DNA of 64,000 nt, from the NCBI RefSeq assembly GCF_018397995.1, contig NZ_BBQH01000034.1:1-64000 (forward strand), written 5' to 3'. This document shows, piece after piece, positions 38,068 to 54,040 of this stretch. The notes beneath the pieces were generated by a model, which saw only the letters and a list, made by a program, of their open reading frames with translations, was not told where the DNA came from and did no database searches. The number at the start of each line of letters is the position of its first letter. Positions within the stretch are counted from its first letter, which is position 1. The stretch comes from Rhizomonospora bruguierae. Its GTDB lineage: Bacteria > Actinomycetota > Actinomycetes > Mycobacteriales > Micromonosporaceae. Position numbers and translations under genes: made by a program.

Positions 38068-39255
38068 ATGAGCGCTGGGCTGGAACAGGGCACCGTGGCG
38101 GCGGCGAACCGGCTCACGGCGGGCTGGGTCGAGCGGCTGGCGGGCACCGGCTCCACCGTGCTGTCCGGCGCCGGCGCGTGGCCGCTGCTGGCGCTGCTGG
38201 CCGCCGCCGCGGCCGACCCGGCCCGCGCGGAACTGGCCGCGGCGGTGGGCGTCCCGGCCGAGGGCGCCGAGGCCCGAGCCCGGGAGCTGCTCGCCGCGGT
38301 GGCGGCGGCCGAGGGCATGGACGGCGCCTTCGGCGTGTGGACCCGCGCCGACCTGCCCGTCGCCGACTGGTGGCGGCAGCACGCGCCGTCGGGCGTCCAT
38401 GGCACGCTGACCGGTGACCCGGCGACGGACCAGGGCGTCCTCGACGCCTGGGCGGCCGGGCACACCCGGGGGCTGATCCCCCGCATGCCGGTCGCGGTCG
38501 GGCCGGATACGCCCGCCGTGCTCGCCACGGCGCTCACCGCGGTCACCACGTGGCCCGAGCCGTTCCGGGACACGCCGCTGCGGTCCGACGAGGGGCCGTG
38601 GTCGAGGCCGGCGCCGATCGCCGGTCTGGTCCGCACCGACCGGGATCTCGGGGCGGTGACCGTCGCGCGGACCAGCGCCGGCCCGGTCACCCGGTACGCC
38701 GTCGCCGGCGCCGGCGACTTCGACGTCCATCTTGTACTCGGGGAGCCCGGCGCCCGCCCCGGCGCGATCCTGGCGGCGGCGGTGCGCGGCGAGGGCACCC
38801 CGGTACCCGGCGCGGAGCTGCTGGCCAACGGCGCCGGCGGCCCCGGGCTGCGGGTCACCGAGGAGAGCAGCTTCGACACCCGGCCGCGGGTGCGGGCCAC
38901 CACGGTCCGCTTCACCGTGGCCGCCGAGCACGACCTGCTCGCGCGGGCGGACCTGTTCGGGCTCGCCGCCGCCGCGCGGGAGGGCGCGTTCCCCGGGCTC
39001 AGCCCGGTGCCGCTGCGGATCGGGGCGGCCCGGCAGGCGGCCATGGCCACGTTCACCGCCGAGGGTTTCAAGGCGGCCGCCGTAACCGCCGCGATGATGC
39101 TCGTCGGCATGCCGAGCGGCACCGCGCCGACCCTCGCCGTCACCTTCGACCGCCCGTTCGGCTTCGTGGTGACCCACCGGCGCAGCGGGTTGGTGCTGTT
39201 CGCCGGCTGGGTCGCCGAGCCCGAGCCGTACCCGCCGGACACCGGCCCGTGGTGA
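38068..39255 (+). CDS. Bacterial serpin
   Basis: 395 aa, the normal serpin length. No signal peptide is visible, so it may act in the cytoplasm. The reactive-loop hinge region reads TFTAEGFKAAAVTAAMMLVG and the C-terminal signature VTFDRPFGFVVTHRRSGLVL, then FAGWV, fits the serpin pattern. The hinge (EGFKAAAVTAAM) keeps small residues, so loop insertion and true inhibition are possible. The target protease is unknown. Serpins are sporadic in bacteria. Its stop codon lies in the first unit of a 14-bp tandem repeat. Confidence 0.82.
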   Translation: MSAGLEQGTVAAANRLTAGWVERLAGTGSTVLSGAGAWPLLALLAAAAADPARAELAAAVGVPAEGAEARARELLAAVAAAEGMDGAFGVWTRADLPVADWWRQHAPSGVHGTLTGDPATDQGVLDAWAAGHTRGLIPRMPVAVGPDTPAVLATALTAVTTWPEPFRDTPLRSDEGPWSRPAPIAGLVRTDRDLGAVTVARTSAGPVTRYAVAGAGDFDVHLVLGEPGARPGAILAAAVRGEGTPVPGAELLANGAGGPGLRVTEESSFDTRPRVRATTVRFTVAAEHDLLARADLFGLAAAAREGAFPGLSPVPLRIGAARQAAMATFTAEGFKAAAVTAAMMLVGMPSGTAPTLAVTFDRPFGFVVTHRRSGLVLFAGWVAEPEPYPPDTGPW

Positions 39256-39320
39256 GCCGGCCGCAGTGAGCCGGCCGCAGTGAGCCGGCCGCAGTGAGCC
39301 GGCCGCAGTGAGCCGGCCGC
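39253..39320. repeat. 14-bp tandem repeat between convergent genes
   Basis: Four full copies and a 12-base partial copy of TGAGCCGGCCGCAG fill the 71-base gap between the serpin stop (the TGA of copy 1) and the stop of the ThDP enzyme gene. Each unit contains the self-complementary GCCGGC and CGGCCG, so transcripts could fold into several alternative hairpins. Confidence 0.9.
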
Positions 39321-39326
39321 GAGCCG

Positions 39327-40949
39327 CTAGGCCAGGTTCGCTGACCGGGGGTAGGCGTCGGCCGGGTCGGTGAGCACGTTCACCAGGTACGGCACGCCCG
39401 CGTCGAACGCCCGGGTCAGCGCCGGCCCCAGGTCGGCCGCCCTCGCCACGGTCTCCCCCGCGCCGCCGAGCGCCCGCACCACCTCGTCGTACCGCAGGCC
39501 CGGCTGGAGGTCGGCGGCCACGTCGTACCCGTACATGGCGCGCATCGGGTGCTTCTCCAGCCCCCAGATGCCGTTGTTGCCGACCACGATCACGACCGGC
39601 AGCCCCTGCCGGGCCAGCGACTCGGCGTCCATCAGCGAGAAGCCGGCCGCGCCGTCGCCCATCAGCACGCACACCTGGCGGTCCGGGTAGGTGAGGCGGG
39701 CGCCCATCGCGTACCCCATGCCGGTGCCGAGGCAGCCGTACGGGCCCGGGTCCAGCCAGGTACCGGGCAGCGCCGGCTCCAGGTAGCGCCCCGCGTACGA
39801 GACGAAGTCGCCACCGTCACCGATCGTCACCGCGTCCCGGTCCAGCACGCGCCGCAGCTCCCCGTACACCCGGGCCGGCTTGATGGGGTCGGCGTCGGCG
39901 GCCATCTCCCCGGCGTGCCGCGCGGCGGCGGCCGCCTCCCGCTCGCGCAGCCCGGCGACCCAGCCGGCGTGGTCCGTGCGGGGGCCGGTGTGGTCGGCGA
40001 AGGCGGTGAGGATGAGCCGCAGGTCCCCGGCGGGTGAGACGGCCGGCTCGACGTGCCCGGCCCGCTGGCCCGGCGCGTCCACGACGTGGATCACCGTGGC
40101 GGCGCCGAAGTCGCCGAAGCCCAGCCGGAAGTCCAGCGGGGTGCCGACGACGGCCACCACGTCCGCGCCGCCGAGCGCCGCCCGGCGCGACTTCGAGAAC
40201 GCCAGGCGGTGCTCCGGTGGCAGGGCGCCCCGGCCCATGCCGTTGGTGAACACCGGCACGTCCAGCGCCTCGGCGGCGGCCCGCAGCGCGTCGACCGCGT
40301 CCCCCGCGTACACGTCCGAGCCGGCGATGAGCACCGGGCGCTCCGCCCGGGCCAGCAGCTCGGCGGCGCGGGCGACCTGCTCGGGGTCGGCCTCGGCGGC
40401 CGGGGGCGCGACCGGGCCGGGCTCGTCGGCCGCCCCGGTCGAGAAGATCACTTCGAGCGGCAGGTCCAGGAAGGCGGGGCCGCGGTGCGGGGTGAGCGCG
40501 GCGGTCAGCGCCGCCGCGACCGCGCCCGGGATGTCGTCCGGCGCGCCCACCGTCGCCGCGTACTTGGTGACCGGCGCGACCAGCGGCACGTGGTCGATCT
40601 CTTGGAGGCTGCCCGACCCCCACCGGAACGCGGGCGCCCGCCCGCCGAGCACCAGCACCGGCGAGCCGTTGAAGAACGCGCTGGTCAGCCCGGAGATCCC
40701 GTTCGTCACGCCGGGACCGGCGGTGAGCACCGCGAGGCCCGGCGCCCGCCGCAACTTGGCGACCGCCTCGGCGGCGAACACCGCGGACTGCTCGTGCCGC
40801 ACGTCGTGGATGGGGAAGCCGGCCCGGTGCGCGGCGTCGTACAGCGGGAACACGTGCCCGCCGGAGAGGGTGAACATCTCCCGCACCCCGGCCGCCTTCA
40901 GCACGGCCAGCGCCAGGTCCCCGCCGTGCCCCTCGATCCGCCCGCCCAT
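39327..40949 (-). CDS. Thiamine-diphosphate enzyme of the acetolactate synthase family
   Basis: 540 aa with the three domains of this superfamily. The activating Glu is in VRHEQSAVFAAEA (about 52), the central NAD/FAD-fold domain spans about 190-330, and the ThDP/Mg motif is MGDGAAGFSLMDAESLARQG with VVGNNGIWGLEKHP. It resembles IlvG/IlvX-like and 2-hydroxyacyl-CoA lyase-like proteins more than the biosynthetic IlvB, and no small regulatory subunit is next to it. The substrate is therefore uncertain. It lies downstream of an enoyl-CoA hydratase gene on the same strand, 94 bases apart. Confidence 0.87.
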   Translation of the reverse strand: MGGRIEGHGGDLALAVLKAAGVREMFTLSGGHVFPLYDAAHRAGFPIHDVRHEQSAVFAAEAVAKLRRAPGLAVLTAGPGVTNGISGLTSAFFNGSPVLVLGGRAPAFRWGSGSLQEIDHVPLVAPVTKYAATVGAPDDIPGAVAAALTAALTPHRGPAFLDLPLEVIFSTGAADEPGPVAPPAAEADPEQVARAAELLARAERPVLIAGSDVYAGDAVDALRAAAEALDVPVFTNGMGRGALPPEHRLAFSKSRRAALGGADVVAVVGTPLDFRLGFGDFGAATVIHVVDAPGQRAGHVEPAVSPAGDLRLILTAFADHTGPRTDHAGWVAGLREREAAAAARHAGEMAADADPIKPARVYGELRRVLDRDAVTIGDGGDFVSYAGRYLEPALPGTWLDPGPYGCLGTGMGYAMGARLTYPDRQVCVLMGDGAAGFSLMDAESLARQGLPVVIVVGNNGIWGLEKHPMRAMYGYDVAADLQPGLRYDEVVRALGGAGETVARAADLGPALTRAFDAGVPYLVNVLTDPADAYPRSANLA

Positions 40950-52012: not shown

Positions 52013-53305
52013 CTACGCGAAGGCGAAGTACCGCAGCCACAGGTAGGGAACCGCGAGCGCGATCGAAACCGCGGTCACCACGAGCCCGTACCGGGTGAAC
52101 TGCCAGAACGTGATGGGGCGGTGGGCGCGCTCGGCGAGCCCCAGAATGACCACGTTGGCCGAGGCGCCCACCGCCGTGGCGTTGCCACCCAGGTCGGCGC
52201 CCAGCGCCAGGGCCCACCACAGCACGTGCCCGGGCCCGCCGCCGGCGCCGCTGAGGTCCGCCACGACCGGACTCATCGTGGCCACGTACGGGATGTTGTC
52301 CACCACCCCGGACAGCGCGGCCGAGCCGCCGAGCAGGACAATCGACGTCAGCAACGGACGGCCCCCGGCGGCGTCGGCGGCGGCCCGGGAAACCGCGTCG
52401 ATCACGCCGGTGGCGACCAGGCCACCGACCATGATGAACAGCCCGGCGAAGAAGACCAGCGTCGGCCACTCCACGTCCCGGACCACCTCGCCGGCATCCA
52501 ACCGGGACAGCGCGAGCAGCAGCAGGCCGCCGCTCATCGCGACCACCGCCGGGGCCAGCGGAAGCACCGAGTGCAGCACGAACGCGGCGGTCACGGCGCC
52601 CAGCACGGCCATGCTGACGACCAGCAACCGGCGCTCCCGGATGGCGTCCCGCTCGCGCAGGCGCAGCACGTCGGCGACCCGATCGGCGTCGAAGACGAAC
52701 GCCTTGCGGAACAGCACCCGGCACAGCCCCACGAACACCACCAGCAGGACCGCGATGAACGGCGCCAGATGCACCAGGAAATCGTTGTACGTCAGCCCGG
52801 CCCGGGACGCGATGATGATGTTCGGCGGGTCGCCGACCAGGGTGGCCGTGCCGCCGATGTTGGACGCCATCGCCTCGGCGATCAGGTACGGGGCGACCGG
52901 CACCGCCAGCCGGTCGCAGACCAGGAACGTCACCGGCGCGATTAGCAGCACCGTGGTGACATTGTCCAGCGCGGCCGACGCGACCGCGGTCACCAGCACG
53001 AGAATGACCATGACCCGGAACGGCCGGCCACGCGCCCGCTTCACCGACCAGATCGCCAGGTACTCGAACGCGCCGGTGCGCCGCAGCACGGAGACGATGA
53101 GCATCATCCCGGTCAGCAGGAAGATCACGTCCCAGTCGATGCCGGAACCGGCCGAGTAGAACGCGTGCTCCGGATCGGTGACGCCGAGCAGCAGCATCAG
53201 GACGGCGCCGCCGAGCGCCGCCGCCACCCGGTGCACCCACTCGGTCGCGATGAGCAGGTACGCGCCGGCAAAGATCGCCACCGCCACCCAGCCGGTGACG
53301 CTCAC
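52013..53305 (-). CDS. SLC13/ArsB-NhaD-type ion permease
   Basis: 430 aa, about 11 membrane helices. Segments [55 protein letters not shown] and [16 protein letters not shown] are the two pseudo-symmetric halves of the ArsB/NhaD/CitMHS ion-transporter superfamily. It may carry Na+, arsenite or dicarboxylates; pairing with nhaA favours Na+/H+ exchange. GTG 53305 is chosen, with AAAGG nine bases upstream supplied by a repeated element. The frame remains open to 53467 through the repeats, but that stretch is not protein-like. Confidence 0.87.
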
Positions 53306-53500
53306 CGGGCTTGCCTTTCGCTCGCGACTGCGGTGCTTCCTCCGCGGCTCTCGCTCGCGACTGCGGTGCTTCCTCCGCGAACACCAACCAGCACGCTCCG
53401 GGCGCTCCTCGCGCTCACCGGGCTTGCCTTTCGCTCGCGACTGCGGTGCTTCCTCCGCGAACACCAACCAGCACGCTCCGGGCGCTCCTCGCGCTCACCG
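53301..53500. repeat. 80-bp direct repeat separating a stop codon and a start codon
   Basis: CTCACCG occurs at 53301, 53414 and 53494. Between the last two lies an 80-base unit; between the first two lies the same unit with an internal 33-base duplication (113 bases). The core CTCGCGACTGCGGTGCTTCC thus occurs three times. On the minus strand each anchor reads CGGTGAG: the 53494 anchor gives the CBS stop (TGA) and the 53301 anchor gives the permease start (GTG). The two genes would be GTGA-coupled without the insert. Confidence 0.88.
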
Positions 53501-53941
53501 TGCCAGCATTCGGTCCAGCAGACCGTCCAGGGTCACGGCGCCGATCATGCGACCGGCCGGGTCCACGACCGCGACCAACGGGCTGCGGGACCGGGCCATC
53601 AGCGCGGCCAACTCCAGCACCGTGGCGTCGGCCGTCACCACGGGCAGCTCGCGCCGCTCCCGGGGGAGCGCCTCGGCCACCGTCCGGTCGCCCAACTCCC
53701 GCAGGAACAGGTCCGCCGCGTCCTCGTCCACGACCCGGGCCAACGCCGGGTCGTCCTGGCAGTAGTCGGGCACCGCCATGCGCAGAACCTGGGTGCCGGG
53801 GAGCACGGTCACCGGGCAGCCCTCGTCGTCCACCACCACCAGGCCGGGCAGATCCTGGCCGGCGAGCAGCCGGGCCGCCTCGATCGCCCGGGTGCGCGGG
53901 TGGACCGTGGGGAAAGGTACAGCGAGATCACCAGCGTGCAC
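53495..53941 (-). CDS. CBS-domain protein
   Basis: 148 aa made of two CBS motifs: about 1-65 (VHPRTRAIEAARLLAGQDLP, LVVVDDEG) and 85-145 (LPVVTADATVLELAALMARS, LVAVVDPAGRMIGAVTLDGL). CBS pairs bind adenosyl nucleotides and often gate transporters. It is the first gene of an apparent operon with the SLC13-type permease and NhaA, so it may sense energy state for ion exchange. GTG 53941 with GGAGG four bases upstream is preferred over the longer frame to 53995. Confidence 0.86.
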   Translation of the reverse strand: MHAGDLAVPFPTVHPRTRAIEAARLLAGQDLPGLVVVDDEGCPVTVLPGTQVLRMAVPDYCQDDPALARVVDEDAADLFLRELGDRTVAEALPRERRELPVVTADATVLELAALMARSRSPLVAVVDPAGRMIGAVTLDGLLDRMLAR

Positions 53942-54040
53942 GGAACCTCCCGGAGCCGTCGTCGAACCCGACGCCGACCAGGCTTCCCGGCACACCTGTC
54001 GGTCACACTACCCGGTCGGGCGGGCAGGGTGACCGGCCCG

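Follow-up and report, generated by a model that had tools for sequence, protein, structure and literature searches.

A dispersed MIRU-type repeat in Rhizomonospora bruguierae, a candidate relay of translational coupling between overlapping genes

Introduction

Dispersed small repeats of bacterial genomes include the REP/ERIC-type and the protein-coding palindromic repeats, which are palindromic. Others, the MIRUs, underlie the strain typing of tuberculosis, and their function is still open; the wording "DTGA sites" was reportedly used for the MIRU by Supply et al. in 1997.

The closest described systems to the element reported here are these MIRUs. The passages of PMC2734929 that bear on them give units of 40-100 bp at 41 locations in H37Rv, units of 55 and 79 bp for VNTR3239, and an rnc-fpg1 spacer that is repeat-bearing in the tuberculosis complex and of 1-54 bp in other mycobacteria. 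In the portion concerned, a review presents MIRUs as apparently mobile and inserting at start codons, with an internal ORF coupled at -4 nt and a minimal impact on expression (PMC12548453), and an excerpt of PMC4473831 defines them by a lack of dyad symmetry and by small ORFs that share the orientation of the contiguous ORFs and overlap them. For senX3-regX3, the corresponding part of PMC4213456 reports units of 77 and 53 bp and promoter activity in the spacer.

In this study, we describe an element of Rhizomonospora bruguierae that would work like a MIRU. We do not file it as a MIRU, since it belongs to another family and the comparison is one of architecture, not of sequence homology. A MIRU-like element outside mycobacteria that is sequence-diverse, occurs in many genera and forms dozens of arrays in a genome allows a statistical test of what is conserved.

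Results and Discussion

Two open units between a CBS-domain gene and a permease gene

The window analysed is a stretch of 64,000 nucleotides (positions 1 to 64,000 of contig NZ_BBQH01000034.1), and the features of the site lie on its minus strand. The upstream gene is a CBS-domain ORF (53495..53995; Pfam CBS PF00571, E 1e-11 on 53498-53947) whose 5′ limit is that of the ORF and not a called start codon; its 3′ end reads CTG GCA CGG TGA (stop TGA at 53495-53497), its protein ends in LLDRMLAR*, and the same C-terminus is found in relatives. The downstream gene encodes a permease of 430 codons (52013..53305; Pfam CitMHS, E 9.7e-95, with a weaker ArsB match) and is followed by a gene for an NhaA-type Na+/H+ antiporter (Pfam). 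Between the two lies an insert of 193 bp, composed of a unit of 80 bp (53419..53498) and a unit of 113 bp (53306..53418), the latter being the 80-bp unit with an internal duplication of 33 bp, a multiple of 3. CGGTGAG is present at all three unit boundaries. A preliminary description of this DNA had proposed the insert, its two units and their CGGTGAG limits, all of which are borne out by the coordinates, by TRF (score 300, period 80, 100% matches) and by BLAST. Chance does not account for the array: when 3 mismatches are allowed, the 64-kb window holds 3 matches to the 20-mer CCGCAGTCGCGAGCGAAAGG vs 0.06 expected.

The same description had located the CBS stop and the permease start in the outermost GTGA motifs, and this holds on the minus strand. 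The left junction GTGA (53495..53498) joins the CBS TGA to the GTG of a first mini-ORF of 27 codons (53415..53498), the middle junction (53415..53418) joins the stop of this mini-ORF to the start of a second one of 38 codons (53302..53418), and the right junction (53302..53305) joins the stop of the latter to the permease GTG (53303-53305). A feature that had been missed is that the units are open mini-ORFs, each of which ends exactly in the following GTGA. Both window units are 2 mod 3 in length, as a unit must be because its GTG must be in frame with the next TGA, and a 4-nt overlap is found at every boundary. Mini-ORF 2 has a Shine-Dalgarno-like GAAAGG (53427..53432) 8 nt ahead of its GTG, and another (53314..53319), the ribosome site that the insert had rightly been said to bring, ends 8 nt before the permease GTG. 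At the start of mini-ORF 1 the Shine-Dalgarno match is nearly nil (GAA). A mechanical ORF list placed the permease start inside the repeat, in another frame.

We consider it likely that the insert is one array of a dispersed MIRU-type repeat, a mobile "relay mini-cistron" that would keep the CBS and permease genes translationally linked. Its insertion site would be an RTGA of 4 nt that serves as stop for one gene and as start for the following one, and each unit would provide, from RTGA to GTGA, an open ORF of 2 mod 3 length, usually with GAAAGG 8 nt before its end. We infer that the mini-ORFs are translated and that termination and reinitiation follow each other along the chain: a ribosome ending the CBS gene would restart on the overlapping GTG of mini-ORF 1, terminate at the TGA that overlaps the GTG of mini-ORF 2, and terminate again at the TGA that overlaps the permease GTG. 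The start of mini-ORF 1 would rely on ribosomes that come from the CBS gene. Neither the insertion nor a subsequent tandem duplication would unlink the genes, and the downstream start would gain a Shine-Dalgarno site. At each boundary, the 4-nt overlap is that of ordinary GTGA/ATGA termination-reinitiation coupling, as treated in part of PMC12548453, and that of the relatives' site; the difference is that repeated mini-cistrons without a conserved peptide are interposed here.

Copies within the R. bruguierae genome

With one unit as query, BLAST returned 87 pieces in the genome, and two end-motif patterns gave 75 and 74 matches vs 7 and 6 for the reversed control. Thirty-seven places were fetched and read. 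A fixed fuzzy unit definition yielded 29 arrays with at least one complete unit and 65 complete units in all, a count that leaves out the L050 units and 9 incomplete units that were dropped. The arrays are single (9), double (10), triple (6), fourfold (2) or fivefold (2). In 25 of the 29, both flanks fit: a long GC3-rich ORF stops in the left GTGA and another starts in the right one; by this ORF and GC3 criterion both flanking genes are co-directional with the unit in these 25 arrays, and the other 4 fail on one side. It had been suggested that a genome-wide BLAST be used to see whether other copies of the 80-mer also sit at stop/start junctions, and this count shows that they do.

The upstream stop lies within the left GTGA in 26 of the 29 arrays, again by criterion. 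At L032 and L033, the upstream gene stops 20 and 9 nt earlier, at another GTGA or ATGA, and a short ORF leads on, which has 7 codons at L032 and is in frame with the first unit at L033. At L036, a truncated unit of 38 bp is followed by a HisH-like gene, and at L047 the upstream side fails the flank criterion without explanation. The left junction base is G in 27 arrays and A in 2, and the right base is always G.

The element shares several traits with MIRUs. Its units are short, dispersed and often tandem between co-directional genes (37 places, 50-113 bp, 20 of 29 arrays with two or more units), they have the same orientation as the flanking ORFs (25/29 on both sides), and the ends of the small ORFs overlap these ORFs (27/29 downstream, 26/29 upstream by criterion). 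It differs by its own sequence and by its occurrence in Micromonosporaceae (named carrier Micromonospora terminaliae), not in Mycobacterium.

Three units contain internal duplications, namely those of 110 bp (L039), 92 bp (L042) and 113 bp (window), to be compared with forms of 89, 74 and 80 bp; the differences of 21, 18 and 33 bp are all multiples of 3.

Empty sites in relatives

A search with the permease gave matches in 30 of 61 genomes, and 29 loci of relatives were fetched. Where the permease is at least 69% identical, the CBS TGA directly overlaps the permease start, as ATGA or GTGA, in 16 of 18 relatives; no CBS end was found in the other two (L205 and L213). Among 11 more distant relatives, a CBS end that does not overlap was found in L215 and L221, and a doubtful one or none in the others; weak motif matches at L216 and L223 were dropped from this comparison. 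No insert was found at the CBS-permease junction in any relative read, within the stretches shown. The uninterrupted junction that had been proposed as a check does exist in close relatives, and the claim that a small repeated element has inserted where stop and start overlap in GTGA stands, with GTGA at both ends and the empty overlap in those 16 genomes. Insertion at a start codon, -4 nt spacing and a short spacer in relatives (here the RTGA overlap in 16/18) are further likenesses to MIRUs. The duplicated target may be either RTGA or TGA.

The complement match to the anti-Shine-Dalgarno sequence was scored at the empty site of 15 relatives, of which 11 have 3-4 nt, 3 have 5-6 nt and 1 has none. 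The insert thus presents GAAAGG at 8 nt where relatives show matches of 0-6 nt, which would suit an adaptive tuner that raises or sets downstream expression through copy number and GAAAGG, closure being one part only. The multiple units of 20 of the 29 own arrays would agree with this, as would the report, in a passage of PMC2734929, that fpg1 mRNA in M. tuberculosis was higher when the repeat upstream of this gene was longer. We nonetheless regard such tuning as unlikely, because the arrays precede unrelated genes with no evident functional theme and because the orthologous junctions of relatives are usually empty.

Three further junctions that carry arrays in R. bruguierae were compared. At tldD-tldE, 21 of 29 relatives have a direct overlap, 6 have one mini-ORF and 2 have another stop type. 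Between ribE and the next gene, the overlap is direct in 25 of 29 (in five of which the next gene has about 232 codons and is not RibA), 3 have another stop type and 1 a longer overlap (L367). At murG-murC, 3 of 29 loci without a MurG end were left out, and the remaining 26 comprise 2 direct overlaps, 13 cases with one mini-ORF and 11 other stops, a number that includes the discarded TTGA case (L283). The hisB-hisH junction was viewed and left uncounted, a further gene lying between hisB and hisH in many relatives.

The mini-ORFs of relatives at murG-murC (13) and tldD-tldE (6) have 9 to 105 codons, and all 19 fill exactly the interval between the upstream TGA overlap and the downstream start; some share a genus, so that the independent cases are fewer. 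Most are unrecognisable as copies of the element; L261 and L329 contain the element or its left end, and L274 has GTCGCGAACGGAAGG. We put forward tentatively, as an idea that we would not yet favour, that relay cistrons may be a general class of ORFs in the family under selection for closure alone; the repeats would be their mobile form, and the mini-ORFs at murG-murC and tldD-tldE decayed or independent members kept for ribosome hand-over, with no role for a peptide. If this is true, new bicistronic leaders would arise from a parasite that leaves translational coupling intact.

One hisB 3′ end carries independent-looking arrays in two genera, which differ in unit type: two units of 59 bp at L111 (genome G008) and the 74-bp type at L036 (own genome, C31:61513). 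This shared position may be either a preferred site or an old insertion.

Frame closure in the genome and in the family

Among the 65 complete own units, 62 are 2 mod 3 (50 of 53 distinct sequences), in 12 in-frame lengths (50, 68, 71, 74, 77, 80, 83, 89, 92, 101, 110 and 113 bp). The three off-frame units measure 81 bp (L032), 79 bp (L046) and 69 bp (L056), the last being a single unit that fuses in frame with the next gene. When the ORF chain is followed from the left GTGA, 27 of the 29 own arrays reach the downstream start, 1 fuses and 1 misses. In the pair of units at L050, three small compensating indels shift the inner frame, yet the length of 80 bp and exact closure are kept. GAAAGG occurs in 57/65 own units; in 63/65, the distance from the best-matching site to the next start is 8 nt. 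A control reading shifted by 2 has no discriminating value in this genome, where 20/29 arrays still close since tandem units re-enter frame, and a shift by 1 is trivial, the same TGA being read. Half-length covariation is powerless here, as all right halves are 0 mod 3.

R. bruguierae is the sole representative of its genus among the family genomes. A composite unit of 95 nt matched by BLAST in at least 59 of 121 family genomes (own included) and at least 29 of 44 genera, mostly through its right half, these counts being lower bounds from the best 7 candidates of each genome. The exact 24-mer left end was tried as a family marker and set aside as too specific, since it matches 4 of the 121 genomes (own included, up to 2 mismatches). 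We read 91 loci from other genomes, 31 taken from the search listings and 60 chosen among the listed places; 72 held complete units, 116 in total, and 19 incomplete ones were dropped.

In these loci, 86 of the 116 complete units are 2 mod 3 and 30 are off-frame, and the chain reaches the downstream start in 56 of the 72 arrays, fuses in 7 and misses in 9, vs 22, 23 and 27, respectively, when the reading is shifted by 2. Off-frame units may still close as a whole array, as in 60+59, 60+60+59 and 57+56. When family units are split at their conserved core, each residue mod 3 is found among the left halves and among the right halves, and the two lengths sum to 2 mod 3 in 80 of 107 distinct units vs 48.8 if independent (0/20000 permutations). 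The excess is also found with the first unit of each locus (51/72 vs 32.4 expected; 0/20000) and with one unit per genome and frame combination (36/57 vs 20.7; 0/20000). As units and genomes are related, binomial values overstate significance, and relatedness is partly controlled in these covariation tests. Closure is well above chance.

By criterion, 47 of the 72 family arrays have the end of an upstream gene at their left junction, so some elements sit at a start codon without overlapping an upstream gene. The right junction base is A in 10/72.

This behaviour bears on the suggestion, made in the preliminary description, that the insert uncouples the two genes and provides the permease with an independent ribosome site. 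The genes now stand 193 bp apart and the Shine-Dalgarno site is stronger, as this suggestion would have it, but we find it improbable: both window units are open, 2 mod 3 and joined by 4-nt overlaps, closure is the rule at 27/29 arrays of the genome, the halves covary in the family to keep it, and frame-keeping would be pointless for an insulator. Since either side still has its 4-nt overlap, the insert should pass coupling on and not interrupt it.

No sign of peptide selection or of a structured RNA

The peptides read from the own-genome units are similar (VSARSARS...GSTAVANERQ..), as expected if the mini-ORFs encoded a functional micropeptide. Such a function is hardly credible in view of two results. 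Minor alleles are distributed by codon position as 9/23/19 (8 arrays of 80 bp) and 22/33/29 (14 arrays of 89 bp), with no third-position excess found among the own units, which gives no indication of peptide selection. The right half of the family units is read as PAVANERQAP, APQSRTKGRHR or PRSRERKAAP, that is in all three frames. Peptide selection was rejected on these grounds. We conclude, on statistical evidence in which relatedness is partly controlled, that frame closure has been kept in the evolution of the element and the peptide not. Conservation of closure, not of the peptide, predicts a translational relay, and coupling may be the selected property.

The 89-bp form has a short GCCGG...CCGGC stem. 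No inverted repeat pair was found in 53201-53650, Rfam gave no match up to E 1, and the four units that were folded did no better than shuffles (z 0.13, 0.27, 0.30 and 1.01), on which a structured RNA was rejected. The lack of dyad symmetry is a likeness to MIRUs and, with the position on stop and start codons, distinguishes the element from REP/ERIC-type and protein-coding palindromic repeats. We also judge very improbable that a DNA or RNA element, such as a promoter, a protein-binding site or a structured RNA, merely lies between the genes. Part of PMC4213456 does report promoter activity for the MIRU-bearing senX3-regX3 region of M. tuberculosis; in addition to the Rfam and folding results, such an element leaves unexplained the length mod 3 and the position on stop and start codons. 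With respect to length, the senX3-regX3 MIRU units cited above from that source are 2 mod 3, like the present element, and the VNTR3239 units given in the cited passage of PMC2734929 are 1 mod 3, unlike its rule.

Distribution, spread and consequences for annotation

Among 298 genomes of the order, with the best 3 candidates scored per genome, a 65-nt element query matched at least 46 genomes of the own family and 1, weakly (E 6.5e-4), outside it. An exact scan of named genome contigs, from which records close to the own genome were possibly left out, returned 9 loci, which belong to MAGs of other phyla (among them Myxococcales and Labilithrix); the 6 inspected are runs of GAGCGCGAG-type repeats and were rejected as copies of the element. 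The element had no match in a phage collection. No paper on it in Micromonosporaceae was found among the matches listed in the literature, a weak negative. The element may have spread by transposition or by a copying process, and no transposase or donor was identified.

The plasmid pLB1 of Micromonospora terminaliae (NZ_CP045310.1) carries a single element of 59 bp between plsC and gpsA, 80.9% identical to the query. The sequence of this element up to the TGA is VSARSEPVLRAPQSRTKVAQ. By the deposited coordinates, the plsC stop falls on one end of the element and the gpsA start on the other, and this annotation gives independent support to the frame reading. In the same record of 24.9 kb (L374), the acyltransferase WP_154225121.1 is listed twice, in opposite orientation, and the element is found at two places.

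Where such a repeat adjoins a gene, the start or end of the gene is easily mis-called, and some proteins have acquired an N- or C-terminal end from a fragment of the element. Such fragments were observed at L031, L041 (C31:46813), L045, L047 and L055: at L031 the end of the upstream protein is an element fragment, and at L045, L047 and L055 the downstream ORFs begin with element sequence in frame.

Elsewhere in the window, five tandem copies of the 14-mer GTGAGCCGGCCGCA (39252-39320) start at the TGA stop of an ORF on the plus strand (38068-39255). This 14-mer is also 2 mod 3, and each full copy is a GTG...TGA micro-ORF of 5 codons. The gene that follows (39327-40949) is convergent, so that there is nothing downstream to couple.
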